A stretch of DNA of 50,371 nucleotides from a bacterium CG_4_9_14_3_um_filter_65_15 (GTDB lineage: Bacteria > Krumholzibacteriota > Krumholzibacteriia > LZORAL124-64-63), in assembly GCA_002790835.1 (NCBI GenBank), contig PFVX01000060.1, positions 1-50,371 on the forward strand, read 5' to 3'. The notes beneath the pieces are model-generated. The model ran no database searches. It was not told the DNA's origin and saw only the letters and a program-made list of their open reading frames with translations. The position numbers were made by a program, and so were the translations under genes. Below are positions 5,872 to 28,586 of the stretch, piece by piece; the first letter of the stretch is position 1, and every line of letters starts with the position of its first letter.

Positions 5872-5909
5872 TGGCTATATCACGGTCTTAAACGCCAGAG
5901 GTGGCATAT

Positions 5910-8928: not shown

Positions 8929-9100
8929 GCGGACTTCCCCGGTTCGAGGTTGCGGAATTCAAGTTACCCCAAGGTAGGTCACCAGCGGGGGGTTCCGCAG
9001 GAAATATTTCCCGGACGGCGCCCTGCGATTCCGCCTCGCCAATGGACACCGGTGCGGACATAATGTCCCTGAAGTGTTCACCCGCGCGAAAGGTGTTCTC

Positions 9101-11998: not shown

Positions 11999-12002
11999 TG
12001 CC

Positions 12003-12683
12003 GTGAAGAAGATGGCGCTCATCGGGTTGTTGGTGGCCGTGCTGGCCCTGGCCGCCTGCGGCCCTGGGGAAGGGCCCCAGGATCCTCGTCCCCGCGTGCT
12101 GATTATCGGCGATTCGATCTCTCTCGGTTACACGCCCGAAGTGGCGGCCTTGCTGGGCGATCGCGCCCAGGTGGTTCACTGCCCGGGCAACGCCCGCCAC
12201 TCCTGGTACGGCGTGGTCTGGCGGGATAAGCTGGTGAGCGGCGGGCCCTGGGACGTCATCCAGTTCAACTGGGGCCTGTGGGACATGTGTTATCGCCGTC
12301 CCGTGCGCGGCGGCGCTTCGGTTCCGGACAAGGCGTGCGGCCGGGTGACCATCGGCCTCGTGGAATACCGGCGCAACCTCGAGCAGGTGGTCGCAAGGCT
12401 GGAGCGCACCGGGGCCACGCTGGTCTGGGCCTCCACCACATCGGTCCCGGCGGGAGAGCGGGGCCGCTTCTCCGCCGATGTGGACCGTTACAACGCCGTG
12501 GCCGCCGAAATCATGCGCGCCCACGGGATCCGGATCACCGATCTCTGTGCCGTCAGCCGCGCCATGCCGCAGAACCTGCGTGTCAATCCTCACAACGTCC
12601 ACTTCACGGCGGAGGGATACCGGCGCCTGGCTCGGGCCGTGGTGTCGGGGCTTCCTCTTGCCAAGACCGCAGACCTCCCGTGA
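12003..12683 (+). CDS. SGNH/GDSL-family hydrolase, lipoprotein
   Basis: 226 aa. A GTG start four bases after the GH92 stop gives a lipoprotein signal ending LALAAC (Cys19). GDSIS at 36-40 supplies the catalytic Ser; GNARHSW follows; NVHFTAEGY near residue 199 supplies the catalytic His in the usual block V position. Such enzymes are esterases, often deacetylating carbohydrates. Its direct coupling to the GH92 mannosidase suggests removal of acyl groups from the glycan before or after mannose release; this is inference from position. It overlaps the next small frame by four bases. Confidence 0.8.
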   Translation: MKKMALIGLLVAVLALAACGPGEGPQDPRPRVLIIGDSISLGYTPEVAALLGDRAQVVHCPGNARHSWYGVVWRDKLVSGGPWDVIQFNWGLWDMCYRRPVRGGASVPDKACGRVTIGLVEYRRNLEQVVARLERTGATLVWASTTSVPAGERGRFSADVDRYNAVAAEIMRAHGIRITDLCAVSRAMPQNLRVNPHNVHFTAEGYRRLARAVVSGLPLAKTADLP

Positions 12684-12805
12684 ATCGCTCCAGCCCCGGT
12701 ATGCCCGTGTTGCTGGTCCTTCCGCCGCTGGTCGTCGTGGCGACGCTGCTTGGGGCCACCCTGGGCTACATGCTGGTGTTCTGGGTCCGGTTCGGCCGCG
12801 GTTGA
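12680..12805 (+). CDS. 41-aa single-span membrane peptide
   Basis: GTG start overlapping the SGNH hydrolase stop (GTGA). Begins MNRSSPGMPVLLVLPP, with one long hydrophobic helix (about residues 9-35) and a basic end WVRFGRG. Translationally coupled third member of the GH92-SGNH operon. Size and topology resemble the other two one-helix peptides in this window (5008 and 5623) but there is no transporter next to it. No family recognised. It ends nine bases before the stop of the convergent lamin-tail-domain gene. Confidence 0.5.
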   Translation: MNRSSPGMPVLLVLPPLVVVATLLGATLGYMLVFWVRFGRG

Positions 12806-12814
12806 CGACCGCGC

Positions 12815-13444
12815 TCAACGGTACGTGGCCTTCATGGCCCCGAAACTCGTCGTCTGGTCGGGAACCGGCTGCTCGCAGGCGTTGGACCCTCCGGGCGTCG
12901 GAGCGCAGCCGTTGCCCTGGGGCGTTTGGCTGCCGGAGTAGGGATTCAGGCCGTCGAACAGGACCCATTCTCCGGTCACCGGATCGCGCCCGCTGCTGCG
13001 GTCATCCTCGGCCTCGTGGTCGCCCACCCACACCTGCTCGAGGATCTGGTAGTCCAAGATCTCGCTGTAGGGGCCGGACATCAGGTAGATGCGGTCGCCG
13101 CCGCTGTTGTTGATCCCGAATCCGGTTTCCAGCCAGCCCCTGTCGCTCTGCCATGCGGTGACGTCGGACCCGTACACCACCTTGACGCCGCCGGCAGCCA
13201 GCAATCCGGACAGCCCGTAGTCGGGCAGGTACGAGGAGTCGTCGCGCAGCCAGTAGTCCTGCAGATCAACGGCCACGGCCCCGAGGTTGATGATCTCCAC
13301 CCATTCGTCCCCGCGGGCGTTGACGGCGCCGTCGCCGTCCCAGTCGCGGGCCGGGTCGCCGAGCACCTCGTTGATGGCGATCTGGGCGGTGGCGGTGGAG
13401 GAATACAGCAGCAGCGACAGCAGGATCAGGATCGAATTTCTCAT
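12815..13444 (-). CDS. Secreted lamin-tail-domain (LTD) protein
   Basis: 209 aa. The ATG at 13444 begins a signal peptide (MRNSILILLSLLLYSSTATA) cut before QIAINEVLGDP. The mature part is one LTD fold: INEVLGDPARDWDGDG at the start, DEWVEIINLG in the middle, LQDYWLRDD, a GGVKVVYG strand and the NNSGGDRIYL loop are standard for bacterial LTD domains, which are immunoglobulin-like and frequently found in exported nucleases and surface proteins. No catalytic domain is attached. The tail is Pro/Gly-rich with two Cys (GNGCAPTPGGSNACEQPVP) that could form a disulphide. Its promoter should lie in the 220-base divergent gap shared with the DASS gene. Confidence 0.75.
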   Translation of the reverse strand: MRNSILILLSLLLYSSTATAQIAINEVLGDPARDWDGDGAVNARGDEWVEIINLGAVAVDLQDYWLRDDSSYLPDYGLSGLLAAGGVKVVYGSDVTAWQSDRGWLETGFGINNSGGDRIYLMSGPYSEILDYQILEQVWVGDHEAEDDRSSGRDPVTGEWVLFDGLNPYSGSQTPQGNGCAPTPGGSNACEQPVPDQTTSFGAMKATYR

Positions 13445-13664
13445 GGGGTTGCCCCGACCGGGAGAGAATGGTTCGCGACGGCATTGCCAGTTTCGTGCCG
13501 GGCGGTGGATTCCGTTCAGCGAGGGTGTCGTGGGAAATGAGGGGATTACCGTCGTCGTGAGTTGACGCTCCCGAACCCCGATGTCTCCGCGCGGTGACAA
13601 GTTCTTTCCAAGCCAGGGTGGGGGTGGTAAAAAATGAGGGTAGCCTGAGCAAGGGAGCCCGCTC

Positions 13665-15194
13665 ATGAAACGTCCCGGCATCGACGCCTCACGCGGGGGT
13701 CTGCTGGGCGGCCCGCTGGCCGCGGTCGCCCTGATGGTCTTCGCCGACCTCGACCCAGCACACCGGGCCGCCACACCCATGGCCGCCATCGGCCTGTGGA
13801 TGGCCATCTGGTGGCTGACCGAGGCTGTCCCGCTGGCGGTCACCGCCCTGCTGCCGGTTGTGCTGTACCCGGTGCTGGGTGTGATGGCCGGCAAGGCCGT
13901 CGCGCCGGTCTACTTCAACTGGATCATCTTCCTGTTTTTGGGCGGCTTCATGGTCGCCCTGGCCATGGAGCGCTGGACCCTGCACCGCCGCATCGCCCTG
14001 CGCATCATCACCGCCATCGGCGGCGGGCCGCGGCGCATCGTGCTGGGCTTCATGCTCGCCACGGCTTTCCTGTCCATGTGGATCAGCAACACGGCCACGG
14101 CCATGATGATGGCGCCGGTGGCCATGGCCGTGATCGCCCGCCTGAGCGACACCCTGGGAGTGCGGCGTGCGCGCAGGTTCGGCACCGCGTTGCTGCTGGG
14201 TGTGGCCTACAGCGCGTCGGTGGGCGGGCTGGCCACGCTTATCGGTACCCCACCCAACCCTCTGCTGGTCAGCAATTTCGAACTGATGTTCCCCGGCGCC
14301 CCGGAGATCTCGTTCGCCGGCTGGATGGTGCTGGGTGTGCCCCTGGCGGTGGTGGCCCTGGCGGCCATCTGGGTGCTGGTGATCCTGCTTTTCCGCCTGG
14401 GCGACCCCGATCTGGTGGTGGACCACGAGGTGTTGCATCGGGAACGCCGCGAGCTGGGCCCCATGTCCTACGAAGAGAAGATCGTCCTGGCCGATTTCAC
14501 CCTCATGGCCCTGCTGTGGCTGTCGCGCAAGGGGCTGGTCGTGGGGAGCCTGGACTTGCCCGGCTGGTCTTCTCTTTTTGCCCACGGCGAGATGATCGAC
14601 GACGGCACCGTGGCCATGGCCCTGGCGGTGATCCTCTTCCTGGTTCCCAGCCGCAGCGAACCGGGCAGCCGCGTGATGGACTGGCACACCGCGCGCAAGT
14701 TGCCGTGGGGCATCGTGCTGCTCTTCGGCGGCGGCTTCGCCCTGGCCAAGGGCTTCGTGGACACGGGGCTGTCGCTGTGGCTGGGGGAGCGCATGGCGGG
14801 CCTATCGTCCATGCCGGTGCCGCTTGTCGTGCTGGCGGTCTGCCTGGTGATGACGTTTCTCACCGAGCTGACCAGCAACACCGCCACCACCCAGATGGCC
14901 CTGCCGGTGCTGGCCTCCCTGGCGGTGGCCCTGCACCTGAACCCGCTGCTGCTGATGGTGCCGGCCACGCTGAGCGCCTCGTGCGCGTTCATGCTGCCGG
15001 TGGCCACCCCGCCCAACGCCATCATCTTCGGCACCGTACAGGTGACCGTGCGCGACATGGCGCGCGCGGGTTTTCTGCTCAATCTGTTCTGCGCCGTGCT
15101 GATCACGGTGGCCGTTTACGTGCTGGGCCCGTACGCTTTCGGCGTGGACCTGCACCAGGTGCCGGCGTGGGCGTCTCATCTGGCTGCGGGATAA
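13665..15194 (+). CDS. DASS/SLC13-family sodium:anion symporter
   Basis: 509 aa with about eleven hydrophobic segments. The two signature repeats of the family are intact: ISNTATAMMMAP (about residue 143) and ELTSNTATTQMALPV (about residue 405), each with the SNT motif that coordinates Na+ and substrate carboxylate. LIGTPPNPLLVSNF and TPPNAIIFG are the matching GTPPN-type loops. Characterised members import succinate, citrate or other C4/C6 dicarboxylates, or sulfate, with Na+. Which of these is used cannot be decided; a dicarboxylate is most usual with this motif set. AAGGGAG lies nine bases before the ATG. It is followed after 53 bases by a hydrolase. Confidence 0.88.
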   Translation: MKRPGIDASRGGLLGGPLAAVALMVFADLDPAHRAATPMAAIGLWMAIWWLTEAVPLAVTALLPVVLYPVLGVMAGKAVAPVYFNWIIFLFLGGFMVALAMERWTLHRRIALRIITAIGGGPRRIVLGFMLATAFLSMWISNTATAMMMAPVAMAVIARLSDTLGVRRARRFGTALLLGVAYSASVGGLATLIGTPPNPLLVSNFELMFPGAPEISFAGWMVLGVPLAVVALAAIWVLVILLFRLGDPDLVVDHEVLHRERRELGPMSYEEKIVLADFTLMALLWLSRKGLVVGSLDLPGWSSLFAHGEMIDDGTVAMALAVILFLVPSRSEPGSRVMDWHTARKLPWGIVLLFGGGFALAKGFVDTGLSLWLGERMAGLSSMPVPLVVLAVCLVMTFLTELTSNTATTQMALPVLASLAVALHLNPLLLMVPATLSASCAFMLPVATPPNAIIFGTVQVTVRDMARAGFLLNLFCAVLITVAVYVLGPYAFGVDLHQVPAWASHLAAG

Positions 15195-15247
15195 AAACCG
15201 GTGTTAGATTGTTGAAGGATTTCCACCCCACCAGCCGGGAGCACGTC

Positions 15248-16024
15248 ATGATCCGTTCGGTCGCCGTATTCGCCCTGCTTTGTGTGATGCTGGTCGCCTT
15301 GCCCGCGGCGGCGGGCTCATCCCGCCAGCCCGTCTCCTTTCCTTCGCTTGACGGGCTGGAGATCACCGCCGACCTCTACGCGCCCTACCCGGACAAGGCC
15401 ACGACCGTGATCGTGCTGTTCCATCAGGCCGAATGGAGCCGCGGCGAGTACCGCGAGATCGCGCCGTGGCTCAACAGCTTGGGCTACAACTGTTTGGCCA
15501 TCGACCAGCGGTCGGGGCGCGAGATCAACGACGTGCCCAACGAGACGGCGGGGCGCGCCGTGGCTGCCAACAAGGGCACCACCTACCTCGATGCGCGCAA
15601 GGATCTGGTGGCGGCGCTGCAATACGCGCGCGCCGAGCTGACCACGGGCCACGTCATCGCCTGGGGCAGTTCCTACTCGGCGGGCCTGGTGCTGGAAATC
15701 GCGGGCGACCAGCCGGGCCTGGTGGACGGGGTGCTGGCGTTTTCCCCCGGCGAATACTTCACGCGCTTCGGCAAGTCGGACGACTGGGTGACCCGGGCTG
15801 TCGGGGGGATCAAGGCCCCGGTGTTCATCACCTCGGCCCGCAGCGAACGCGACGGCTGGAAGCCTCTTTACGCGGGCGTCAAGGGCGTCAAGGCGTCGTT
15901 CGTGCCCAACACCAAGGGCAACCACGGATCTCGGGCGTTGTGGACCCGGTTCGACGACAGCGCGGTCTACCGCGACGCGGTAAAAACGTTTCTGACCATG
16001 TATCTGGATGGAGTGAAGGAATAA
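15248..16024 (+). CDS. Exported alpha/beta-hydrolase (dienelactone hydrolase-like)
   Basis: 258 aa. ATG at 15248 with GGGAG seven bases upstream, signal peptide to about residue 22 (LVALPAAAG). The fold is shown by VIVLFHQAEWSR (oxyanion strand), the nucleophile elbow WGSSYSAG with Ser142, in which the usual second Gly is Ser, and KGNHGSRAL with the likely catalytic His near 231. The general plan is that of small periplasmic dienelactone-hydrolase/BAAT-like esterases. Substrate unknown. Its stop overlaps the start region of the macrodomain gene (TAATG), so the pair is coupled. Confidence 0.75.
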   Translation: MIRSVAVFALLCVMLVALPAAAGSSRQPVSFPSLDGLEITADLYAPYPDKATTVIVLFHQAEWSRGEYREIAPWLNSLGYNCLAIDQRSGREINDVPNETAGRAVAANKGTTYLDARKDLVAALQYARAELTTGHVIAWGSSYSAGLVLEIAGDQPGLVDGVLAFSPGEYFTRFGKSDDWVTRAVGGIKAPVFITSARSERDGWKPLYAGVKGVKASFVPNTKGNHGSRALWTRFDDSAVYRDAVKTFLTMYLDGVKE

Positions 16025-16551
16025 TGAGCAACATCGGCAAGCGCATGGAAGCGGTTCTGGGCGACATCACGGCCATGGAGGTCGATGCTGTCGTCAACGC
16101 GGCCAACGAACATCTGGCCGGGGGCGGCGGCGTGGACGGGGCCATCCACCGGGCGGCGGGCCCGCAGCTGCTGGAAGCGTGCAAGCGTCTGGGCGGATGT
16201 CCCACCGGCGAGGTGCGCCTGACTCCGGCATTCGATCTTCTGGCGCGCGCCGTCATCCACGCGGTGGGACCGGTGTGGCACGGCGGCCGGCGCGGCGAGG
16301 AGGAGCTTCTGGCATCGTGCTACCGGCAGGCGCTGTATGTGGCGGCGGATGAGGCGCTGGTGACGGTGGCGTTCCCTGCGATCAGCTGCGGCATCTACGG
16401 CTACCCGCGGGATGAGGCCGCCGAGGTGGCGGTGCGCACGCTGGCCGAGACCTTGCCTGAATGCCCGGAGATCGAGAAGGTCTACCTGGTGGCTTACGAC
16501 GAGGAGATGTTCGAATTCTACGAGGCACTCATCCATGAAATGGGGAAATGA
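16024..16551 (+). CDS. Macrodomain protein (MacroD-type O-acetyl-ADP-ribose/ADP-ribosyl hydrolase)
   Basis: 175 aa, a single macrodomain. Motifs in order: GDITAMEVDAVVNAANEHLA with the Asn and Asp of the binding pocket; GGGGVDGAIHRAAG, the substrate loop of MacroD enzymes; VIHAVGPVW; and PAISCGIYGYP, the distal phosphate-binding loop. This full set is the hydrolytically active MacroD2/YmdB class, which removes ADP-ribose from acidic residues and cleaves O-acetyl-ADP-ribose. It is cytoplasmic, although translationally coupled to an exported hydrolase, so co-expression rather than shared location links them. It converges on the broken yaaA. Confidence 0.9.
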   Translation: MSNIGKRMEAVLGDITAMEVDAVVNAANEHLAGGGGVDGAIHRAAGPQLLEACKRLGGCPTGEVRLTPAFDLLARAVIHAVGPVWHGGRRGEEELLASCYRQALYVAADEALVTVAFPAISCGIYGYPRDEAAEVAVRTLAETLPECPEIEKVYLVAYDEEMFEFYEALIHEMGK

Positions 16552-16560
16552 CACCGACCG

Positions 16561-17138
16561 CTAACGCTCCACCGGCCGCGTGAACAGCCAGTTGCCCGAC
16601 GCGGGCGGCTCGCTGCCCGCCTCCCAGCCCATCTCCCCAAAACCCAGCAGATCGGTCGGCTTGCGCGCGGCCCGGGTGATGATCCAGTTGACCATCGCGC
16701 CGCGGGCCATCTTGGCGTAGACGGGTGCGGACTTGAGCGTGCCGTCGGGCCGGATCTCCTTGAACACCGGCGAAATCACGGGCCCACGCAAGGCCTTGAT
16801 GTCGATGACCCTGGCATACTCCTGGCTGGCCAGGTTGATGACCGGTTCTCCATCCTTCAGTTCCTCCTTCAGGGCGGCGGTCAGGCGCGGCTTCCAGTGC
16901 GCGGCCAGGTCGGGGGCGGTGGACGGACGCCGTCTTCGCCCCAGCGCGCGATGTGGGCGCGGGCCGCGGGCAGCGTGTTCTCGCTCAGGTCGAACTCGGC
17001 CAGGGGGTGCCCTCGGCTCAGCGGCTTGAGCGCGGCCATGAGCTGCTGCGCTTCGGCGACGAAGCGAGGCGCAGTGGTCTTCAGCCGCGTGGCGACGTCC
17101 GGATCCATGGTCTTGGTCGAGTTCAGCAGGATCTTCAT
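16561..17138 (-). pseudogene. yaaA: Broken yaaA (DUF328/UPF0246 peroxide-stress protein)
   Basis: The minus strand from the ATG at 17138 starts MKILLNSTKTMD, matching the YaaA opening (E. coli MLILISPAKTLD), and the far end in another frame reads EPVINLASQEYARVID then SAPVYAKMARGAMVNWII and ends NWLFTRPVER, all YaaA-like. Between them the frame shifts near 16915-16925 (578 bases in total, not a multiple of three) and the central 70-80 residues containing the LxGLYGVLRPLDL and YRLEMG region are missing. So the gene has both an internal deletion and a frameshift. The start overlaps the ABC-F stop (ATGA). YaaA normally lowers free iron during peroxide stress and binds DNA. Confidence 0.7.
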
Positions 17139-18952
17139 TCCCGGCTTTCCAGTTCTTCCCACCGGGCGTACACGCCGGGCAATTCGGCTTCGACGGCTTC
17201 GAGGCGCTCGGTGAGCGGCGCGACCTTTTCCGGGGCGGTGCGGTACAGGTCGGGGTCGGCGAGCTGGGCGTGCAACTGCTTCATTTCGCCCTCCAGGGAC
17301 TCGATGCGCGCGGGCAGTTCCTCCAGTTCCTTCTTCTCCTTGAAGCTGAGCTTGCGCGGCTTGTCGTTCGCGGATTTGTCGCTCGAGGATTTGTCGCGCT
17401 TCTCCTTCGCCGGCTTGGGCTCGGTCGCCGCCGCGCCGGCTTTTGAAACCCGCTCCCACTCGCTGTACCCACCCACGGTCTCGACGATGCGGCCTTCACC
17501 CTCCAGCGCCAGGGTGCTGGTGGTCACGTGGTCGAGGAACTCGCGGTCGTGGCTGACCAGCAGCAGGGTGCCGTCGAACTCCAGCAGCAGCTCTTCGAGC
17601 AGATCCAAGGTCTCGAGATCGAGGTCGTTGGTGGGCTCGTCGAGGATCAGCAGGTTGGCCGGCTGGGTGAACAGGCGCGCCAGCAACAGGCGGTTGCGTT
17701 CGCCGCCCGACAGGCGGGTGATGGGGCTGCGCGCGCGGTCGGGGGTGAACAGAAAACTCTGCAGATAGGTGATCACGTGCACCGGGCGGCCGTTCACGCT
17801 CACGGTGTCGCCGCCGCTATCGGCCACGTTCTCCTGCACGGTCTTGGTCTCGTCGAGCTGGGCGCGCTGCTGGTCGAAGTAGGCCAGGCGCAGGCCCGTG
17901 CCCAGACGGGCCGACCCGCCGGTCGGTTCCAGCTCGCCCAGCAGGAGCTTGAGCAATGTCGATTTGCCGGCGCCGTTGGGTCCGAGGATGCCCACCTTGT
18001 CGCCGCGCTGGATGCGCGTGCTGAAATCCCGCACGATGGGTTCGCCGTCGGGGTAGGCGAAGGCGAGGTCGCGGGTCAGGACCACGAGCTTGCCGCTGCG
18101 TTCGGTGTCCTGGAGCTGGAAGCTGGCGTCCTGCTGGCGTCCTCGACGGGCCTCGCGCTCGTCGCGCATCTTCATCAGCTCGCGCGCGCGGCCCTCGTTG
18201 CGGGTGCGGCGCGCGCGCACGCCCTTGCGGATCCAGATCTCCTCCTGGGCCAGCTTGCGATCGAACTCGTCCCACCGGGCCTGCTCGTTGCGCAGGACCT
18301 CGTCGCGCCGCGAGAGAAATGTGTCGTAGTCACAGGTCCAGTCGCGCAGTCGGCCCCGGTCCAGTTCGATGATGCGGTCGGCCAGCCGCCGCAGGAACAC
18401 CCGGTCGTGCGTGACGAAGAACAGGGTGCCGCGGAAGCGCCCCAGCTCGCCTTCCAGCCACGCGATGGCGTCGATGTCGAGGTGGTTGGTGGGCTCGTCC
18501 AGCAGCAGGACGTCGGGTTCGCCCACCATGGCGCGCGCCAGCAGGACGCGGCGGCGGTTGCCCTGGGACTGCTCGTCGAACACGGCGTCCGGATCCAGCC
18601 CGGCGCGGGTGAGCACCTGCTCCACCACGTGTTCGCGACGCCAGGCCTCGTCGTGGCCGCCCGAGCCGCCCGGACCGGTCAGGCCCTCGGCCACCACGGA
18701 CCGCAGATCACCCGGCAGATGGTCGGGCACCTCCTGGGGCAGGAACCCGATGCGCGGCCGGCCGGGCATGAGGACCTCGCCGCAGTCGGGGGTCATCTCG
18801 CCGGTGAGCAGGCGCAACAGGGTGGATTTGCCCTCGCCGTTGCGTCCGAGCAGGGCCAGGCGCTCACCCTTCTCCAAACGCAGATCCACGCGGTCGAGCA
18901 CCGGCGCTCCGCCGAAGGATAAGCTGACCTGTTTGAGTTCGATCTGGGCCAT
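17135..18952 (-). CDS. uup: ABC-F ATPase of the Uup type
   Basis: 605 aa, two ABC ATPase domains and no membrane part. Walker A sites GRNGEGKST and GPNGAGKST, Walker B LLLDEPTNHLD and LILDEPTNDLD, and switch His in VTHDR and VSHDR. The linker IRKGVRARRTRNEGRARELM and the charged C-terminal coiled coil (about residues 515-600, LSFKEKKELEELPARIESLE) are those of Uup, which acts on ribosome assembly and branched DNA. The signature of the second domain is normal (LSGGERNRLLLARL) but that of the first reads QSQGNRRRVLLARA, so LSGG is replaced by SQGN. It heads a two-gene unit with the broken yaaA. Confidence 0.88.
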   Translation of the reverse strand: MAQIELKQVSLSFGGAPVLDRVDLRLEKGERLALLGRNGEGKSTLLRLLTGEMTPDCGEVLMPGRPRIGFLPQEVPDHLPGDLRSVVAEGLTGPGGSGGHDEAWRREHVVEQVLTRAGLDPDAVFDEQSQGNRRRVLLARAMVGEPDVLLLDEPTNHLDIDAIAWLEGELGRFRGTLFFVTHDRVFLRRLADRIIELDRGRLRDWTCDYDTFLSRRDEVLRNEQARWDEFDRKLAQEEIWIRKGVRARRTRNEGRARELMKMRDEREARRGRQQDASFQLQDTERSGKLVVLTRDLAFAYPDGEPIVRDFSTRIQRGDKVGILGPNGAGKSTLLKLLLGELEPTGGSARLGTGLRLAYFDQQRAQLDETKTVQENVADSGGDTVSVNGRPVHVITYLQSFLFTPDRARSPITRLSGGERNRLLLARLFTQPANLLILDEPTNDLDLETLDLLEELLLEFDGTLLLVSHDREFLDHVTTSTLALEGEGRIVETVGGYSEWERVSKAGAAATEPKPAKEKRDKSSSDKSANDKPRKLSFKEKKELEELPARIESLEGEMKQLHAQLADPDLYRTAPEKVAPLTERLEAVEAELPGVYARWEELESRE

Positions 18953-19314: not shown

Positions 19315-20169
19315 ATGGCCAACCGCATCCATTCGTTCGTCATCGGCGTGCTGGCGTTCCTGGTGACACTCATCACCGCCGGGGTTCTGGTTTATGGCCG
19401 TGCGTTCTACCTGACCGGTTATGCGGACCGCCCTCATCACGACCTGTTCCGCGTGCTGCGCTCGGCCGGCCTGGTGGGACACGGCCTGGGCATTTTGGGC
19501 AGCGCCATGGTTTTGCTGCTGCTGGTGTATTCCCTCCGCAAGCGGACCAAGATCATGCAACGCTGGGGAAACCTGCGTATCTGGTTGCGATATCACATTT
19601 TCCTGGGTATTGCGGGCCCGGTTCTCATCACTTTGCACACGTCCTTCAAGGTGCAGGGACTGGTGGCGGTCAGCTACTGGTCCATGGTGGCGGTGGCCCT
19701 GAGCGGCTTTTTCGGTCGCTATCTTTACCAGCAGATTCCGCGCAACGTTCTGGGTGAGGCGCTCAGCGAAGAGGCCATCGAGAATCGCCGCGAGGAACTT
19801 CTGGTCACTTTGGCGGATGATCACGGCCTCCAGGGCTCGGGGGTGGACGCCTTGGAGGATCTCGCCATGGCGAGGCTTTCTCGGGTTCCTCTGGCCATGG
19901 GCTTATTGATCCTGCCTTTTCTGAATATCGTGTTGGCCCGGAGATTGCAAAATTGGGAAAGGGATTTCGTCGTGTCCGAAGACAAAGGGGCCAGGAATCA
20001 AGGCCGGGAATGGGTTCTTTTGACTCGCCGTTTGCACCTGTTTCGGCAAGTCAACGACCTATTCCACTATTGGCATGTCTTTCATAAACCGTTTGCCGTC
20101 ATCATGATCGTTGTCATGATCGTTCACGTGACCGTCGCCGTGATGCTGGGATACACCTGGCTGGCGTGA
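19315..20169 (+). CDS. Multi-histidine membrane protein, likely cytochrome b-type quinol reductase subunit
   Basis: 284 aa, about six hydrophobic helices and a soluble loop near residues 140-195. Histidines lie in or at helices: VGHGLG (helix 2), RYHIF and ITLHTSF (helix 3), HYWHVFHKP before the last helix and IVHVTVA within it. Pairs of this kind bind b haems in the cytochrome b561/ferric-reductase/NarI-like folds. With the cytochromes encoded next it would take electrons from the quinone pool and pass them to the periplasm, the job of CbcL- or CymA-type proteins in Geobacter and Shewanella. That role is inferred from context. No CxxCH is present. It is the first gene of the five-gene unit. 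Confidence 0.65.
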   Translation: MANRIHSFVIGVLAFLVTLITAGVLVYGRAFYLTGYADRPHHDLFRVLRSAGLVGHGLGILGSAMVLLLLVYSLRKRTKIMQRWGNLRIWLRYHIFLGIAGPVLITLHTSFKVQGLVAVSYWSMVAVALSGFFGRYLYQQIPRNVLGEALSEEAIENRREELLVTLADDHGLQGSGVDALEDLAMARLSRVPLAMGLLILPFLNIVLARRLQNWERDFVVSEDKGARNQGREWVLLTRRLHLFRQVNDLFHYWHVFHKPFAVIMIVVMIVHVTVAVMLGYTWLA

Positions 20170-20212
20170 CCCCCTGAAACCGAATGAGGGCCCGGTTTTG
20201 GATTGTAGGAAC

Positions 20213-21940
20213 ATGACATCATTTTCAAATAAACGATTATTCTTATCCATTTTGGTGGTCATTTGTGGTTTTCTGGGGACAGGAATGCCGTCAGCGGTGC
20301 TTGCCCAGCTATCCCCGGGCGACCTCACCCACGCCCACGCGGAACTCGACGGTCTCCGCAAATGCAAGAAATGCCATGACTTCGGCAATCGCGAAGTTCG
20401 TCAGGGCTGTTTGGATTGCCACGGGGAGATCCAGGCCATGCGAACCGAAAAGAAGGGTCTACACAGCCAGGACGAGTTTGATGATTGCGCGAATTGTCAC
20501 GTCGAACACAACGGGGCCGATTACGATCTGATCGCATGGGACGGGGGCCAGGACTCGTTCGAACACCGCCGCGCCGGGTTCACTCTCGCCGGCAAACACG
20601 CGGAGCTGGCCTGCCGCAAGTGCCACACCGTCAAATACGCCCAGGAGCCCCTCAAGTGGCGATCCATGGGCAAGGATCTCAACCGCACCTTCCTCGGCCT
20701 GGACTCCGCGTGCAAATCATGCCACGAGGATCATCACCAGGGTCAGCTGGGGGACGATTGCCTGAAGTGCCACGACCAGCGCGACTGGAAGAAGCAGCCC
20801 CTGTTCGATCACGCCCGCGCGAAATTCCCCCTGACCGGTCTGCACGCCAAGGTCGATTGCGCCAAGTGCCACAAGCCCGAACCGGTGAAGGCCGGCGGAA
20901 GTCCCACCCCCCGCTACACGAACCTCGTCTTCGCCGCCTGCACCGACTGCCACAAGGATCCCCACGAGGGACGCTTGGGCGGCAAGTGCATCGATTGTCA
21001 CAACACCGGCGGATGGTTGAAGTTGGCGACGGACAAATTCGATCACGACCGCACCAAGTATCCCTTGCGCGGTCGCCACACCTCGGTGACCTGTGAGAAA
21101 TGCCACGGAAACACCAAGAGTGGAGATGGCCTGACCAAACCCGCGTACGCCGCCTGCAAGGATTGCCACCGGGACGAGCACGGCGGTCTGGCGCGCGAGC
21201 ATGCCGCCTGGCTGACCTGCGAGAATTGCCACGACCTGGAGGGCTTCCGTCCGTCGCGCTACCCCCTGCAGAAGCACCGCGAGAGCGCTTATTCCCTGGA
21301 AGGGTCGCATCTGGCCGTGGCCTGCGGTCAATGCCACCGCCGCCCCGGTCCGACCGGCGCGGCGAAGCTCGATCTGGCCCCGGCGCGTCAGGATTGCCGG
21401 GATTGCCACGACAATCCCCACGAAAAATCAGCCGCGTCCGGTGACGTGTTCGCCGGGCTGGCTTGCAGCAGTTGCCATGTGCCTGCCACCTGGCGTCAGG
21501 TGTCGGGTGAAGGCGGCTTCGACCACGGCAAAACCCGTTTCCCCCTGGACGGACGCCATCGCCCGGTGTCCTGCCGCGGCTGCCATGTGCCCGACGCCGA
21601 GCACAAGGGCAATCTGCTGTTCAACCAGGCTCCGCGCGACTGCAACGGCTGCCACAAGGATGTTCACGGCGCCCAGTTCGCCGACCGTCTGGTGGCCGAC
21701 TCCGAGCTGATCGACTGCGGCCATTGCCATGTGACGACGGACTGGCTGGCCGAAAAGTTCAACCACGAAACCGACGCCCGCTTTGCCCTCAAGGGCGGCC
21801 ACGAGCGCACCCCTTGCGCAGGATGCCACAAGCCCGAGACCGGCCCGGATGGGGTCGTCATGACACGCTACAAGCCCCTGCCCATGGAGTGCCGGGCCTG
21901 TCATGACGCCCAACCCGGGGAAGGGAGTACCGGTTCATGA
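20213..21940 (+). CDS. Exported 20-haem c-type cytochrome
   Basis: 575 aa. Start ATG at 20213 with TAGGA just upstream; signal peptide to about residue 31 (FLGTGMPSAVLAQ). I count twenty CxxCH haem sites, the first at CKKCH and the last at CRACH. Several units follow the pattern FDHxxTxFPLxGxH then CxxCH (for example FDHARAKFPLTGLH and FDHGKTRFPLDGRH), where the conserved His residues are likely distal ligands giving bis-His haems. The repeat is the same as in the next protein, so the two are related. Expected in the periplasm or across the outer membrane, relaying electrons from the membrane protein at 19315. The stop overlaps the next start by four bases. Confidence 0.92.
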   Translation: MTSFSNKRLFLSILVVICGFLGTGMPSAVLAQLSPGDLTHAHAELDGLRKCKKCHDFGNREVRQGCLDCHGEIQAMRTEKKGLHSQDEFDDCANCHVEHNGADYDLIAWDGGQDSFEHRRAGFTLAGKHAELACRKCHTVKYAQEPLKWRSMGKDLNRTFLGLDSACKSCHEDHHQGQLGDDCLKCHDQRDWKKQPLFDHARAKFPLTGLHAKVDCAKCHKPEPVKAGGSPTPRYTNLVFAACTDCHKDPHEGRLGGKCIDCHNTGGWLKLATDKFDHDRTKYPLRGRHTSVTCEKCHGNTKSGDGLTKPAYAACKDCHRDEHGGLAREHAAWLTCENCHDLEGFRPSRYPLQKHRESAYSLEGSHLAVACGQCHRRPGPTGAAKLDLAPARQDCRDCHDNPHEKSAASGDVFAGLACSSCHVPATWRQVSGEGGFDHGKTRFPLDGRHRPVSCRGCHVPDAEHKGNLLFNQAPRDCNGCHKDVHGAQFADRLVADSELIDCGHCHVTTDWLAEKFNHETDARFALKGGHERTPCAGCHKPETGPDGVVMTRYKPLPMECRACHDAQPGEGSTGS

Positions 21941-24900
21941 AGCTCCGCCCCGCAACCCTGATCGCCATGGCCGCCGTTACCCTGGCCGCCGCCACGCTGG
22001 CGGCCGGGACCGCCTCTGCGGCCGACACGCTCAACCCGCACGGCAACATCTCCCTCGATTGCAAGGTGTGCCACACCGAGAATACCTGGCGCATCACCGG
22101 ATCGCCCAAGGGCTTCGACCACTCCGACACGGGCTTCCTTCTCGAGGGCCTGCACAATCACGTCGAGTGCCGGGAATGCCACCGCAACAAGGTGTTCGCC
22201 TTCGTGGGCACCCAGTGCCTGGATTGCCACGCCGACTTCCACAAGGGCCGGCTGGGACCCGCCTGCCGGGATTGCCACACGCCGTCCGGCTGGGTCGACC
22301 GCGGCGAGATGAGCCGCAAGCACATGGAGACCGCCCTGCCCCTGGTGGGCGCCCACGCCCAGATCGATTGCGATGCCTGCCACACCGGAGCCGCGCGCGC
22401 CGACTATGTGGGCACTTCCGCCGACTGCTTTGGCTGCCATGAGGAACAGTACACCGGGACGACCAACCCGCCTCACGCCCAGTCGGGCATCGGGACCGAT
22501 TGCCGGACCTGCCACGGCGTGTTTTCGGCGACCTGGGGCGCGGGGGATTTTGTCCATCCCCAGAGCTTCCCTCTGACCGAGGGCCACTCGGGCCTGGACT
22601 GCACACGATGCCACGAAGTCGGCAGCGGGTTTGTGGGGCTGTCCACCGAATGCGCGACGTGTCACCAGTTCGACTACGACGGCACCACCGACCCCAACCA
22701 TCAGGCGGCCGGCTTCCCCACCGACTGCACCCAGTGTCACACCACGGTGAGCTGGGAGGGTGCGAAAATCGATCACGACCTGACGAACTTCCCCCTGACC
22801 GGCGCGCACGTGACCGTCGATTGCGCAGCCTGCCATGTGTCGACCTTCACGGGTACGGCCACCAATTGCGATGCCTGTCATCTGGACGACTACAACGGCA
22901 CCGATGATCCCGACCACGCGGCCGGCGGGTTCCCCCTGGATTGCAGCCGGTGCCACCAGACCGACAATTGGGATGGGGCGGTCTTCGACCACGACAGCAC
23001 CGATTTCCCGCTGACCGGGCGGCATGTGGGAGTGAACTGCGCCTCGTGTCACGAGTCCGGTTACGCCGGAACGGCCATGAACTGCGACGCGTGCCACCTG
23101 GACGACTACAACAGCGCCGAGGACCACCGTGCGCAGGGATTCCCCCTGGACTGCACCCGGTGCCACACAACAGCGGGGTGGGAAGGGGCGGTGGCGTTCG
23201 ACCACGGCACCACGGCTTTCCCCCTGACCGGAGCGCACAGCGGCCCCGGTTGCATCTCCTGCCATGAGGCGGGTTTTGTGGGCACGGCCGGCGATTGCTG
23301 GAGTTGCCACCAGGACAACTACGCCGGCGCCACGGATCCGGACCACCCCGGCGGGGGCTATTCCCAGGATTGTTCCCAGTGCCACAACGTCGACGGTTGG
23401 GGCGGAGCGACCATCGACCACGCCACGCAAACCTCGTTCCCCCTGACCGGAGCCCACGTCGGCGCCGCTTGCGCGTCCTGCCATACTTCCGACTATACGG
23501 GTACCGCCGCCAACTGCGATGCCTGCCACCTTGACGACTACAACGGCACCGGCGACCCGGACCACGTCGGCGGCGGGTTCCCTCTGGATTGTCAGCAGTG
23601 TCACGTGACCGACAGCTGGGACGGCGGTCAGATCGACCACAACCTGACGGCGTTCCCGCTGACGGGTTCCCACGTGACGGTCGATTGCGCCCAGTGCCAT
23701 GTTGCCGGTTACACGGGCACTTCCAGCGAATGCCAGAGCTGTCACCTCGACGATTACAACGGCACCGTGGATCCGGACCACGTGGGCAGCGGATTCCCCA
23801 CCGCTTGCCAGCAATGCCACAACACCGACAACTGGGATGGCGGTCAGATCGACCACAACCTGACGGCGTTCCCGCTGACGGGCGCCCACGTGGCGGTCGA
23901 CTGCGCCCAGTGCCACGTTTCCGGCTACACCGGCACCGCAAGCAATTGCGACGCTTGCCACCTGGACGACACCAACGGCACTTCCGATCCCGATCACGCA
24001 GCCGAGCAATTTCCCCTGGATTGTTCCGGTTGTCACCAAACCACGGCCTGGGAACCGTCCACGTTCGACCACGCCCAGACGGCGTTCCCGTTGTCGGGCG
24101 CCCACACCACGACTTCCTGTGTCGATTGTCACGACGCCGGCTACGTGAACACCCCGCGGGCCTGTCAAAGTTGCCATCTCGACGACTACAACGGGACCAC
24201 CGACCCCAACCACGCCGCTGAACAGTTCTCCCTCGATTGTTCGCGGTGCCACGATCCGGTGGCCTGGTATCCCGTGAACTTCGATCACAATCAGACATCG
24301 TTCGCATTGACCGGCGCCCACGGCGCGCTGGATTGCCTCCAGTGCCATGCCAGCGGCTATACCGGTACGGCCACCAATTGCGACGCCTGTCACCTGGACG
24401 AGTACAACGGAACCACCGATCCCAATCACGCGGCCGAGCAGTTCCCCCTGGATTGCTCCGGCTGTCATCAAACAACTGCGTGGGATCCGTCCACCTTCGA
24501 CCACGGTCAGACGGCGTTTCCGTTGACCGGCGCGCATGTCTCGACGTCCTGCGTCCAGTGCCATGATTCCGGCTACGTGGGCACCCCGACGGACTGCCAG
24601 AGCTGCCATCTGCCCGACTACAACAACACCACCGACCCGGACCACCAGGCGGAGCAGTTCCCCACCACCTGCACCAACTGTCACACCATCACGGCGTGGA
24701 CTCCCGCCGATTTCGACCACAACCTGACGTCGTTCCCTTTGACCGGCGCCCACGGCCCGCTGGATTGCACCCAGTGCCACGCCACGGGTTACGCGGGGAC
24801 CTCGTCCGAATGCCAGAGCTGCCACCTGGACGACTACAATGGAACCGTGGACCCGAATCACCAGGCGGAGCAATTTCCGCTTGTTTGCGCCAGTTGTCAC

Positions 24901-25587
24901 AGCACCACCGCCTGGACCCCGTCTTCCTTCGACCATGGGCAGACGGCGTTCCCGTTGACGGGCGCGCACACCACGACCTCGTGCCTCCAGTGTCACGATG
25001 CCGGCTATGTCGGCACGCCCACGAACTGCGACGCCTGCCACCTGACCGATTACAACGGGACCACCGACCCGGACCATCAGGCCCAGTCGTTCCCGCTGGA
25101 TTGTTCGGGCTGTCACGAGACCACCGGCTGGACCCCCGCGACCTTCGACCACACCCAGACGTCATTCCCGCTGACCGGGCGGCACATCACGACGGCCTGT
25201 ACCCAGTGCCATACTTCGGGTTATTCGGGCACGCCTTCGAACTGCGACGCGTGCCATTTGAACGACTACAACAACACCACCGACCCGAACCACGCCGCGG
25301 CGAATCTCCCGCTGGATTGCGCGCAGTGCCACACCACCTCGGCCTGGGAGCCGAGCACTTTCGACCACGACCGCGACTACTTCCCCATCTATTCGGGAAA
25401 ACACCAGGGCAGGTGGAACAGCTGCACGGATTGCCATGTGGTGTCGTCGGACTACGCGCAGTTCGAGTGCATCCTTTGTCACGAGCACAACAAGACCGAT
25501 ACCGACAGGGACCACAGCGAGGTGCGCAACTACGTCTACAACAGCGACGCCTGTTACGCTTGCCATCCGCAAGGGAGGAGCGATTGA
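21937..25587 (+). CDS. Giant 49-haem c-type cytochrome built of three-haem tandem repeats
   Basis: 1216 aa with a signal peptide (cut after GTASAAD, about residue 29). By hand count there are 49 CxxCH motifs, one per 25 residues, with no other domain. From about residue 230 the protein is a chain of about 13 units of 72 residues, each with three haems: CxxCHLDDYNGTTDPNH, then FPLDCxxCHxTxxW, then FDHxxTxFPLTGAH followed by CxxCHxxGYxGT. Conserved His in DPNH, FDH and GAH can serve as distal ligands. The N-terminal 200 residues are divergent units and the last 90 close the chain with CTDCH, CILCH and CYACH. Translationally coupled to genes on both sides. Best read as an extended haem wire through or beyond the outer membrane. 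Confidence 0.93.
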   Translation: MKLRPATLIAMAAVTLAAATLAAGTASAADTLNPHGNISLDCKVCHTENTWRITGSPKGFDHSDTGFLLEGLHNHVECRECHRNKVFAFVGTQCLDCHADFHKGRLGPACRDCHTPSGWVDRGEMSRKHMETALPLVGAHAQIDCDACHTGAARADYVGTSADCFGCHEEQYTGTTNPPHAQSGIGTDCRTCHGVFSATWGAGDFVHPQSFPLTEGHSGLDCTRCHEVGSGFVGLSTECATCHQFDYDGTTDPNHQAAGFPTDCTQCHTTVSWEGAKIDHDLTNFPLTGAHVTVDCAACHVSTFTGTATNCDACHLDDYNGTDDPDHAAGGFPLDCSRCHQTDNWDGAVFDHDSTDFPLTGRHVGVNCASCHESGYAGTAMNCDACHLDDYNSAEDHRAQGFPLDCTRCHTTAGWEGAVAFDHGTTAFPLTGAHSGPGCISCHEAGFVGTAGDCWSCHQDNYAGATDPDHPGGGYSQDCSQCHNVDGWGGATIDHATQTSFPLTGAHVGAACASCHTSDYTGTAANCDACHLDDYNGTGDPDHVGGGFPLDCQQCHVTDSWDGGQIDHNLTAFPLTGSHVTVDCAQCHVAGYTGTSSECQSCHLDDYNGTVDPDHVGSGFPTACQQCHNTDNWDGGQIDHNLTAFPLTGAHVAVDCAQCHVSGYTGTASNCDACHLDDTNGTSDPDHAAEQFPLDCSGCHQTTAWEPSTFDHAQTAFPLSGAHTTTSCVDCHDAGYVNTPRACQSCHLDDYNGTTDPNHAAEQFSLDCSRCHDPVAWYPVNFDHNQTSFALTGAHGALDCLQCHASGYTGTATNCDACHLDEYNGTTDPNHAAEQFPLDCSGCHQTTAWDPSTFDHGQTAFPLTGAHVSTSCVQCHDSGYVGTPTDCQSCHLPDYNNTTDPDHQAEQFPTTCTNCHTITAWTPADFDHNLTSFPLTGAHGPLDCTQCHATGYAGTSSECQSCHLDDYNGTVDPNHQAEQFPLVCASCHSTTAWTPSSFDHGQTAFPLTGAHTTTSCLQCHDAGYVGTPTNCDACHLTDYNGTTDPDHQAQSFPLDCSGCHETTGWTPATFDHTQTSFPLTGRHITTACTQCHTSGYSGTPSNCDACHLNDYNNTTDPNHAAANLPLDCAQCHTTSAWEPSTFDHDRDYFPIYSGKHQGRWNSCTDCHVVSSDYAQFECILCHEHNKTDTDRDHSEVRNYVYNSDACYACHPQGRSD
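22651..25380 (+). repeat. Tandem array of ~216-bp coding repeats inside the 49-haem gene
   Basis: About 13 head-to-tail units of roughly 216 bp, each encoding three haem sites. Some neighbours are nearly identical at DNA level, for example the segments beginning at about 23625 and 23841, which both encode GGQIDHNLTAFPLTG, whereas others differ at many codons. This indicates expansion by duplication at more than one time and a copy number that may vary between strains or be miscounted in short-read assembly. Confidence 0.8.
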
Positions 25588-27215
25588 AACACCTGCGCAA
25601 CATCATGATTTTGACAGCTTTGCTGACCGTGGGTGCTGGAATGGCTCAGGCGGACCAGGCGATCGTGAAGGTCCGCTACCTGAGCGCCGAACACGTGTAC
25701 CTGGATTCCGGAGCCCTGGATGGCCTGCGCGTGGGTATGACGGGCGAGGTGAGGCGCGGCGATCTGACGGTGGCGGTGCTGGAAGTGGTCTTCACGGCCG
25801 ACCATTCGGCGGCGTGCAAGACCGTCGGGGAGTCGGCGGCCGTCGCCGAGGGTGAGGAGGTCTATTTCACGGTGGATGACGAGGCGAATGAGGCCCAGGC
25901 GGACACCGTTGCGGTCTCCCGCCCGTCCCGCCAGCGCCCGGTTTCGGTCGCCGGCGTCGGGACCGACCTGGTGCCGATAGCCGAACGCGCCCATCTGACC
26001 GGCAACATCGGCTTGGTCTGGGATCACACCGAGTCCACCGCCGAGGCCGAACTGAAGACCGACTACTGGACGCTTCCCTTCCGTTTCCAGGTCGAAAACC
26101 TGGGCAAGGGCTGGGAGTTGCGGTCGCGGGGTTCGCTGCGGCGGTTCGATCGCTCCGGTTACAGCGGTTCAACGCCCGGCGGGGAGTGGCGCAACCGCGT
26201 CCGCGAGATGTCCCTGGTCAAGGACGGCGAAGGAGCACCGTGGCATCTGGCCGTCGGCCGGGTGCGCTCGCGCCAGACCAGCGCCGCCGGACCCTTCGAC
26301 GGCCTGCTGGTCGAACGCCGCCTGGGAGGCGAAACGTATTGGGGACTGTTCGCCGGGTTCACACCCGAGTGGGGCACCTACGCCTTCGGCACCGACGACC
26401 ACGTCAAAGGCATGACTTTCCACAGCCGTTCCCGTACCGAGTCGGGGAAGTTTGCCGACGCGACCGTCACCGCCCTGGGCCGCTACCGCAGCGGGGAGAT
26501 CAGCCGGGAGTACATGACCTGGACCCTCTCCTTGCGCGACGGCGCCAAATGGAACCTCATGCAGGGGGGCGAGGTCGACCTGAACCGGGATTGGCGCAAG
26601 GATGCCGCCGACGGCAAGTCGCTGACCTTGACCGGATTCGCGCTTTCCGGCGGCATGAAGGCCAGCGGGCGCACGCGGCTGGATCTGGGCTTCGACAACC
26701 GCGAACTGATTCGCACCTGGGAGTCGCGCTCCTTGCCCGACAGCCTGTTCCGCAATTCCGGTCGTCGAGGCTGGCGGGCCGGTCTGAGCATGCGCACCGG
26801 AACGAGCGGCCGGCTGCGCCTGAGCGGCAGCGTGCGGCAGGACGACAGCCAGGACGGAAACACCACCTCCTGGATGGGCCGGTTCACCCAGCCCCGACTT
26901 GCGGGCACCCCGCTGGGCCTCCTCCTGGTGATGCGCGGATTCGATGGCCCCTACCTCAAGGGCTGGGCTCCGCAGGGCGGGTTGTCGCTGTACAAGAATG
27001 GAAGCCGCTTTTCCCTCGACGGGGGCGGGTATTCCTACGAGGACGCCGCCGGCACCAACAACCGCAAAAACACCTGGGTCAGCCTGCGCTGGTCGCGCGA
27101 TTTCAGCCGCAGCTGGTCGGGATCCGTGGAGTACCGCAAGGATTGGGGCGACGACATCGTCGGCAAGCGCTGGTATCTGGAAATCCATCATCGCATCGGA
27201 CCCGCAGGGGGGTGA
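25584..27215 (+). CDS. Outer-membrane beta-barrel with N-terminal FlgT-C-like domain (putative conduit porin)
   Basis: 543 aa. The TTG at 25584 overlaps the cytochrome stop, follows GGGAGGAG, and gives a signal peptide with a basic start (MKHLRN to GMAQA); an ATG at 25605 is less suitable. Residues 25-110 (AEHVYLDSGALDGLRVGMTG, VVRRGDLTV) look like the small SH3-like FlgT C-terminal domain. From about 150 on the sequence alternates polar and hydrophobic residues with many aromatic strand ends and finishes KRWYLEIHHRIGPAGG, as in a barrel of 20 or more strands. There are no haem sites. By position it is the analogue of MtrB/PioB-type porins that hold a cytochrome in the outer membrane, but I see no direct sequence likeness. 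Confidence 0.7.
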   Translation: MKHLRNIMILTALLTVGAGMAQADQAIVKVRYLSAEHVYLDSGALDGLRVGMTGEVRRGDLTVAVLEVVFTADHSAACKTVGESAAVAEGEEVYFTVDDEANEAQADTVAVSRPSRQRPVSVAGVGTDLVPIAERAHLTGNIGLVWDHTESTAEAELKTDYWTLPFRFQVENLGKGWELRSRGSLRRFDRSGYSGSTPGGEWRNRVREMSLVKDGEGAPWHLAVGRVRSRQTSAAGPFDGLLVERRLGGETYWGLFAGFTPEWGTYAFGTDDHVKGMTFHSRSRTESGKFADATVTALGRYRSGEISREYMTWTLSLRDGAKWNLMQGGEVDLNRDWRKDAADGKSLTLTGFALSGGMKASGRTRLDLGFDNRELIRTWESRSLPDSLFRNSGRRGWRAGLSMRTGTSGRLRLSGSVRQDDSQDGNTTSWMGRFTQPRLAGTPLGLLLVMRGFDGPYLKGWAPQGGLSLYKNGSRFSLDGGGYSYEDAAGTNNRKNTWVSLRWSRDFSRSWSGSVEYRKDWGDDIVGKRWYLEIHHRIGPAGG

Positions 27216-27224
27216 GAACAGTTC

Positions 27225-28586
27225 ATGGAAGCCTTCTTTGAAAAGTATCTGATCTGGGGATTGGTTCTCGCCTCGGTCGTGACGGGAGTGTGGGTCTATC
27301 TGCGGAATTTCCGGGCCATGCGCTCGAGCGCGGCCCGGCGCCTGACGCAGAACCAGGAACTGGGCATGGATCGGCCCATGGGCCAGTACCCCCTGGTGGA
27401 TTCCGGACAGTGCATCGGTTGCGGGACGTGCGTGGACGCGTGTCCCGAGGGTGATGTGTTGGGAATCGTCTCGGGCCGGGCCATGGTGATCAACGGCGCG
27501 CGCTGCATCGGCCACGGCAAGTGCGCCGAAGCATGCCCCGTGGGAGCGATCATCGTGGGCCTGGGCGACGTCACCAAACGGGACGATATCCCGCAGCTCG
27601 ATGCGAACCGGCAGACCAATGTCCCCGGCCTGTATGTCGCCGGCGAGCTGAGCGGATTCGCCCTGATCCACAACGCGGTGAACCAGGGCGCCGAGACGGC
27701 CAAGGCGGTGGCGCAGTCGCTGAAATCCACCGGCCCTCGCGACACGGGCAAGCTCGACCTGGTCATCGTGGGTGCGGGTCCCGCCGGCATGAGCGCCGGC
27801 TTGACGGCGTGTGAGCTGGGCCTGTCGTTCGTGGTGCTGGACCAGCAGGGGGCAGGCGGGACCATCCTGCAGTACCCGCGGCGCAAGCTGGTCATGGTGC
27901 AGCCGATCACGATCCCCACCTATGGTCCCTTGAAGAAGCTGGAATATCGCAAGGAGCAGCTCCTGGAAATCTGGAACGAGCTGCACAAGACCCAGGGGCT
28001 GGACATCCGAGTGGGCGTGAGGGTCACCGGGGTCGAGGGATCCGACGGCAATTTCCGGGTCATGACCAGCGGCGAAACGGTTTCCTGCCGCAAGGTGATC
28101 CTGGCCCTGGGGAGGCGGGGATCCCCGCGCCGCCTCAACGTGCCGGGCGAGGACCTGCCCAAGGTCGCCTACAAGCTGATCGACGCCGAGGCCTACACCA
28201 GGCGCCGGGTGCTCGTGGTCGGCGGCGGCGATTCGGCGGTGGAGGCCGCCATGGGCCTGGCGCATCAGGACGGCTGCGTGGTCACCCTGTCCTACCGCAA
28301 ACCCGACCTGCTGCGCATCAAGCAGCGCAACGCCGAACGCATCGCCCCGCTGATCGAAGACGGCCGCCTCACCTTCCTGGGCGCCACCAACGTGACGGCC
28401 ATCCAGGAGGAGGTCGTCACCCTCAAAGGGCCCGACGGCCCCATCATCCTGCCCAATGACGAGGTCTTCATCATGGCCGGCGGTATCGCGCCCTTCGGCC
28501 TGCTGCGCCAGATGGGTGTGAGGTTCGGCGGCGACCAGAAGGACGATGTCCTGCTGCATGCCGGGGCGGGCAACCATTCCGCCTGA
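27225..28586 (+). CDS. Membrane-anchored ferredoxin/FAD-NAD(P) oxidoreductase
   Basis: 453 aa. One N-terminal helix (about 8-27), then two Fe-S motifs: C63-x2-C66-x2-C69-x3-C73-P and C94-x2-H97-x2-C100-x3-C104-P, the second with His in place of the second Cys. Residues 118-165 (NVPGLYVAGELSGFALIHNA) resemble the C-terminal FAD-contact segment of a thioredoxin-reductase-like flavoprotein. A full flavoprotein follows with FAD GAGPAG (183-188) and a second dinucleotide site VVGGGDSAVEAA (about 329-340). It could exchange electrons between NAD(P)H, ferredoxin or quinone and the cytochrome chain. It is the last gene of the operon, nine bases after the barrel gene. Confidence 0.8.
   Translation: MEAFFEKYLIWGLVLASVVTGVWVYLRNFRAMRSSAARRLTQNQELGMDRPMGQYPLVDSGQCIGCGTCVDACPEGDVLGIVSGRAMVINGARCIGHGKCAEACPVGAIIVGLGDVTKRDDIPQLDANRQTNVPGLYVAGELSGFALIHNAVNQGAETAKAVAQSLKSTGPRDTGKLDLVIVGAGPAGMSAGLTACELGLSFVVLDQQGAGGTILQYPRRKLVMVQPITIPTYGPLKKLEYRKEQLLEIWNELHKTQGLDIRVGVRVTGVEGSDGNFRVMTSGETVSCRKVILALGRRGSPRRLNVPGEDLPKVAYKLIDAEAYTRRRVLVVGGGDSAVEAAMGLAHQDGCVVTLSYRKPDLLRIKQRNAERIAPLIEDGRLTFLGATNVTAIQEEVVTLKGPDGPIILPNDEVFIMAGGIAPFGLLRQMGVRFGGDQKDDVLLHAGAGNHSA

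Follow-up and report, generated by a model that had tools for sequence, protein, structure and literature searches.

A candidate PCC3-type porin-cytochrome conduit with a putative electron-entry module of its own in Krumholzibacteriota

Among the described porin-cytochrome conduits, the PCC3 type, known since 2017, comes closest to the locus reported here. According to He et al. (PMC5566968), a PCC3 cluster consists of a porin, an extracellular multihaem cytochrome (MHC) with a median of 34 and up to 85 haems, a periplasmic MHC with a median of 21 haems, and an inner-membrane protein (IMP) of about 300 amino acids. The IMP has five transmembrane helices (TM), with a W-x3-H-x13-H motif on TM3 and on TM5 and an SGxxG motif on TM4; its histidines were read as ligands of two b haems and the protein was compared with FRD. 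Such clusters occur in Gallionellaceae, Leptothrix and Burkholderiales (PMC5566968), are functionally unverified (PMC12442390), and were down-regulated on Fe(II) in Sideroxydans ES-1 (PMC8788666). In addition, an adjacent pair of MHCs with 24 and 49 haems, encoded with a porin, is described for Burkholderiales S13 (PMC7399161).

The present locus lies in a stretch of 50,371 nucleotides (the window) from a Krumholzibacteriota MAG, the closest named relatives of which are Krumholzibacteriia MAGs. The host genome has a size of 3.39 Mb in 94 contigs and is 95% complete. An earlier note, made from the letters of the window alone, had described five same-strand genes joined by 4-base overlaps or short gaps, and our computational analysis agreed with this layout. 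On the forward strand, gene A (19315–20169) encodes a 284-aa inner-membrane protein, gene B (20198–21940) an exported 20-haem cytochrome, gene C (21937–25587) an exported 49-haem cytochrome, gene D (25584–27215) a predicted outer-membrane barrel, and gene E (27225–28586) a membrane-anchored 4Fe-4S/FAD/NAD(P) reductase according to its Pfam matches and fold. A and B are separated by 28 bases and D and E by 9 bases, while the end of B and the start of C share 4 bases (ATGA). The start codon of B is TTG, an ATG at position 20213 being possible as well. For D, the TTG at 25584 is preferred over a possible ATG at 25605; translation from this TTG yields a 4-base overlap with C (TTGA) and a fuller signal peptide, MKHLRNIMILTALLTVGAGMAQA. 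A consensus scan of the locus gave no convincing promoter or terminator. Upstream of A, a gene for a two-ATPase ABC protein is located on the opposite strand (17135–18952), and downstream of E a small ORF without an assigned family is followed by a gene for a Sortilin/Vps10-like protein. The window also holds, upstream of the five genes, genes for a HipA-type kinase (6260–7561, forward strand) and a macro-domain protein (15433–16551, forward strand).

The two exported cytochromes had been credited with 69 CxxCH haem-binding motifs, and the exact counts were 20 in B and 49 in C. On both strands of the whole window, B and C are the sole frames with at least three such motifs, so their occurrence is not due to chance. 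B contains Cytochrome_C7 and c3 domains and is a putative periplasmic wire, and C, on which a signal peptide is visible, is a putative wire outside the cell. Haem packing is dense in both, with 29 residues per haem in B and 25 in C. The homologues of B carry 17, 20 or 23 haems (three have 24) and those of C between 12 and 67, although some of the latter counts come from fragmented MAGs and may be too low; the numbers in the window and in its relatives are in keeping with those of PCC3. The haem count of C leaves a remainder of one on division by three in 37 of 48 cases (nominal p = 7e-10, not corrected for kinship). Regular trihaem repeats extend over positions 22822–25332 of the forward strand, with haem spacings of approximately 15-25-32 residues and a 216-bp period in the DNA (tandem repeats finder). 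Based on the counts and this regular spacing, C seems to grow and shrink by whole trihaem modules. The modules in the window are 67–81% alike in DNA, and thus the array is no obvious assembly artefact. With TIGR03508, the model for decahaem MtrA-type proteins, the two cytochromes reached 40 and 45, the cut-off being 192, and a match of C to PF22113 (MtrC/MtrF) was ascribed to shared haem motifs and not to membership. Elsewhere in the host genome (L150, G000:C78:9000–28000), cytochromes with 26, 16, 6 and 7 CxxCH motifs adjoin a PPIC-type rotamase gene in a locus at 6357–13155, with no homologue of A, D or E alongside; this cluster may be a separate electron-transfer system.

Gene A had been noted as a multi-His membrane protein, and its histidine motifs do sit on hydrophobic segments. 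By inspection of the alignment, the protein has five such segments, the last three of which bear one motif each: a first W-x3-H-x13-H (W90, H94, H108; 19582–19638), an SGxxG (residues 130–134; 19702–19716) and a second W-x3-H-x13-H (W253, H257, H271; 20071–20127), all on the forward strand and with all positions invariant in 46 of 46 homologues. Its size, its five segments and both types of motif are those published for the PCC3 IMP, and A is therefore a putative di-haem cytochrome b. Four histidines arranged as two Hx13H pairs on two helices, together with a cytosolic flavin/NAD(P)H unit, are also reminiscent of NADPH oxidases and FRD proteins (PF01794), but this likeness concerns a possible way of working only. 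Here A and E are separate proteins, E is of the TrxR and not the FNR type, 4Fe-4S clusters are added, and PF01794 gave no match to A up to an E-value of 5, so the fusion of PF01794 to a flavin reductase in one protein, by which that group is recognized, is not found. Distant homologues of A that keep all four histidines adjoin an unrelated flavin reductase (FAD_binding_6/NAD_binding_1) on proteobacterial plasmids of Methylophaga, Alteromonas, Variovorax, Sphingobium and Roseomonas. This reductase usually comes with a Fer2 (2Fe-2S) domain, which in Roseomonas has a gene to itself. A-type proteins thus occur with NAD(P)H-type reductases of two unrelated kinds. The plasmid operons of this kind, six in number, mostly include a small multihaem cytochrome and are often located near copper-resistance genes or, in Alteromonas, hydrogenase genes.

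The structure of D was predicted with AlphaFold2 using 41 natural sequences. The model, which is confident (pLDDT 89.4), shows a small beta domain at the N-terminus and, following it, 22 barrel strands, so that the barrel proposed in the earlier note was recovered and the porin of a PCC3 cluster has its counterpart here; in many cases more strands were predicted for the published PCC3 porins (PMC5566968). The note had further set this barrel apart from the MtrB type, and every test that was run supports the distinction. The best PDB matches of the model were ushers and porins with TM-scores below 0.6, MtrB was absent from the top 50 matches, and MtrB_PioB (PF11854) was matched neither by the 41 relatives of D nor by anything in the host genome. 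On these grounds, assignment to the MtrAB family was dropped. The MtrCAB, MtoAB and PioAB systems share with the present locus a way of working, a haem wire through an outer-membrane barrel, but differ in possessing MtrB_PioB and decahaem cytochromes instead of the 20- and 49-haem ones. As for the FlgT-C-like N-terminal domain previously suggested for D, it holds at the level of the family, where 11 of 41 relatives matched PF16538 (FlgT_C) with a best E-value of 2e-5, but not for D itself, which was not significant; a Pfam search with D alone found nothing.

E fits its initial description as a membrane-anchored ferredoxin/flavoprotein, with a single N-terminal helix, a pair of 4Fe-4S motifs and a Pyr_redox domain. 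An arginine-rich stretch after the helix suggests that the catalytic part is on the cytosolic side. In the first cluster motif, C63-x2-C66-x2-C69-x3-C73P (27411–27443; this and the following features of E are on the forward strand), C63, C69 and C73 are present in 39 of 39 sequences and C66 in 33, the remaining six having Ser, Thr or Val. The second, C94-x2-H97-x2-C100-x3-C104P (27504–27536), is of the Cys3His type, with a His where a second Cys is usual; this His is found in 37 of 39 sequences and the cysteines in all 39. Then follows a segment (residues 123–165; 27591–27719) that matches residues 250–293 of 5nii and corresponds to the C-terminal FAD piece of thioredoxin reductase, but is placed before the FAD-binding motif GxGPAG (residues 183–188; 27771–27788). 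When the segment was moved to the end of E, the alignments became continuous over both parts (e.g., 3–311 versus 6–321 of 7a76) and the best score, 83.7 bits before, rose to 90.4 bits. From its sequence, E is thus most readily understood as a circularly permuted enzyme of the thioredoxin reductase type. The NAD(P)-binding motif GGGDSA (residues 333–338; 28221–28238) is invariant in 39 of 39 sequences.

The best neighbours of E in sequence and fold are YpdA/Bdr and the thioredoxin/ferredoxin-NADP reductases, with which it shares intact FAD and NAD(P) motifs. In contrast to YpdA/Bdr and the thioredoxin reductases, E is permuted and membrane-anchored, has an N-terminal 4Fe-4S domain and is devoid of redox-active cysteines: the alignments show GPAG and not GPCG, with Ala where YpdA/Bdr has Cys. 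Without these cysteines, the idea of a functional thiol reductase was dropped, and with TIGR04018 E scored 158 against a cut-off of 340, below the threshold for a bacillithiol reductase. The permutation is not exclusive to the conduit operon, as permuted cores that lack the cluster domain are found elsewhere in Krumholzibacteriota. Four genomes without A and D encode such cores (model positions 117–435) in frames of 659–994 aa that have no 4Fe-4S part, and a 785-aa protein similar to the permuted cores is encoded among glycosyltransferase genes.

To see how widely the genes recur, 57 Krumholzibacteriota genomes, each at least 85% complete, were surveyed. A was present in 20 of them, and D and full-length E in 19 each (one E was cut by a contig end). 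The same 19 genomes carry A, D and full-length E, the twentieth A-bearing genome has A near the end of a short contig, and neither D nor full-length E was found in the 37 genomes without A. Two congeners of the host lack A, D and E, and the system is thus patchy. When the genome collection was scanned with A, 80 loci emerged, distributed over Krumholzibacteriota, Calditrichota, Neomarinimicrobiota, Zixibacteria, Latescibacterota, Acidobacteriota, KSB1, Electryoneota, Marinamargulisbacteria, Nitrospirae and Nitrospinota. Three of the loci, from MAGs labelled Fibrobacter, Latescibacterota and Gemmatimonas, have nearly identical A proteins on short tree branches, and some of these labels are probably wrong. 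As near-identical loci appear under different phylum names, MAG names must be taken with some caution, and the phylum count is no more than approximate.

With Emticicia included, 26 loci were untruncated, having at least 9 kb on either side of A. In twenty of these, from several phyla, A, D and E are accompanied by two or more large cytochromes. Three from Acidobacteriota, which form one supported clade in the tree of A, contain A, two cytochromes and D but lack E, and E is thus not obligatory. The other three are without cytochrome or barrel genes. Loss of the barrel or the membrane protein from homologous loci had been named in advance as a result that would speak against the proposal, and nearly all untruncated relatives keep both. 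The gene order, also expected to recur, does so within the family, since the Krumholzibacteriota relatives have large cytochromes, then D, then E as in the window, but it varies between phyla, being A-B-C-D-E, A-E-B-C-D or B-C-D-A-E depending on the lineage. A cultured member of Bacteroidota, Emticicia oligotrophica DSM 17448, carries ccsA-A-E-B-C-D, with 23 haems in B and 40 in C, at 5899–17697 of the 100-kb plasmid pEMTOL02. A tblastn search of plasmids with A, B, D and E retrieved only Emticicia and the small FNR-IMP-MHC operons, and no proteobacterial PCC3.

The earlier note had regarded the gene order and haem load as unlike any known system. This view was abandoned, together with the idea of a system unknown to science: PCC3 has the same parts, and the 24- and 49-haem pair had been published (PMC7399161). 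In common with PCC3, the locus has a porin, a very large extracellular-type MHC, a periplasmic-type MHC of approximately 20 haems, a five-helix IMP and repeats in the larger MHC, a likeness drawn from the published description and the motifs. It differs in the added flavoprotein E and in its hosts, which belong to non-proteobacterial phyla. The S13 cluster, where the larger of the two adjacent MHCs likewise varies in haem number, has a porin classed by its authors as OmbB-like and, in the accessible part of the report, no mention of a flavoprotein (PMC7399161). No NAD(P)H flavoprotein was found for PCC3 in the open-access literature. We consider, with moderate confidence, that the locus encodes a PCC3-type porin-cytochrome conduit equipped with an electron-entry module of its own; cytochrome c assembly being represented among the genes of the host is in line with this.

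Together, the products of the five genes probably form a wire of 69 haems that leads from the inner membrane to the cell surface by way of a pore in the outer membrane. Cytosolic NAD(P)H would reduce the FAD of E, and the iron-sulfur clusters of E would hand electrons one at a time to two b haems of A, a five-helix protein. On the periplasmic side, A could pass them to the 20-haem wire B, which would be long enough to bridge the periplasm and might dock at or enter the barrel D. From the surface, the 49-haem C would take the electrons outward, where a mineral, an electrode or another cell would accept them. In such a scheme, A and E would work like a two-protein NADPH oxidase/ferric reductase, with flavin and pyridine nucleotide inside and a haem-b pair across the membrane. 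That this pair drains cytosolic NAD(P)H into the haem wire and out via the barrel, bypassing the quinone pool, is a reading we put forward tentatively. Of the complete quinone/NAD(P)H-to-exterior route that had been deduced initially, the conduit fed from the inner membrane is still the best reading, its five-gene linkage being strongly supported, while the entry can be narrowed: NAD(P)H through haem b appears more likely than the quinone model of He et al., since A-type proteins recur beside two unrelated cytosolic flavin reductases.

The main competitor is a conduit that runs inward or is linked to quinones, in which extracellular Fe(II), Mn(II) or another donor would reduce C, and electrons would pass through D and B to A, which would reduce quinone, with E taking part of the electrons or working separately. 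This corresponds to the published PCC3 model and to the occurrence of PCC3 in iron oxidisers (PMC5566968). The host has four haem-copper oxidase matches, a possible electron sink, so that inward flow to oxygen is conceivable, and the clusters without E imply that A could presumably function with a different partner. On the other hand, E is present in most untruncated loci, A-type proteins stand beside two kinds of NAD(P)H-type reductase, and Fe(II) did not induce PCC3 in ES-1 (PMC8788666). Moreover, reduction of NAD(P)+ from surface donors would be uphill and the cluster encodes no pump or other energy-coupling subunit, for which reason outward flow is favoured. On balance, we regard the inward or quinone-linked conduit as rather unlikely.

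E, with A, might alternatively stand outside the conduit and supply reducing power for thiol or haem chemistry in the envelope, for example by keeping the 138 haem-binding cysteines reduced during maturation. The fold of the thioredoxin reductase type and the heavy thiol load of 69 CxxCH motifs would suit such a role, as would the ccsA cytochrome assembly gene that adjoins the Emticicia cluster. The absence of the redox cysteines of thioredoxin and bacillithiol reductases, the pattern of A, which is that of a transmembrane haem-b protein and not of a thiol protein, and the lack of A and E at the other cytochrome-rich loci of the host make this very improbable. A main role of the cytochromes in storing electrons within the envelope, as a capacitor, instead of conducting them through it, could be suggested by the very large number of densely packed haems, and capacitor roles have been proposed for such proteins (PMC7399161). 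This is hardly credible given that a purely internal store would need no barrel: of the 20 Krumholzibacteriota genomes with A, 19 have the barrel, and the remaining one has A at a contig end.

The preferred reading, a PCC3-type conduit fed by A and E, contains several elements that are apparently new. These are the flavoprotein itself, absent from published PCC3 descriptions, with its permutation and Cys3His-type motif, and, within the open-access literature, the trihaem quantisation of C, the spread of PCC3-type clusters far beyond Proteobacteria, including Emticicia oligotrophica, and the co-occurrence statistics. PCC3 is a recurrent conduit, for which a conserved NAD(P)H-type flavoprotein in the operon offers a concrete, testable entry point, and Emticicia oligotrophica, with the full set on a plasmid, could be a laboratory model. 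Within the family, wires differ naturally by whole trihaem modules, a series from which one could learn what sets wire length. Should the NAD(P)H route be true, extracellular respiration in these phyla need not use quinones, and if A and E do act like an NADPH oxidase, they would represent a separate class of electron-export route that is widespread in uncultured phyla.
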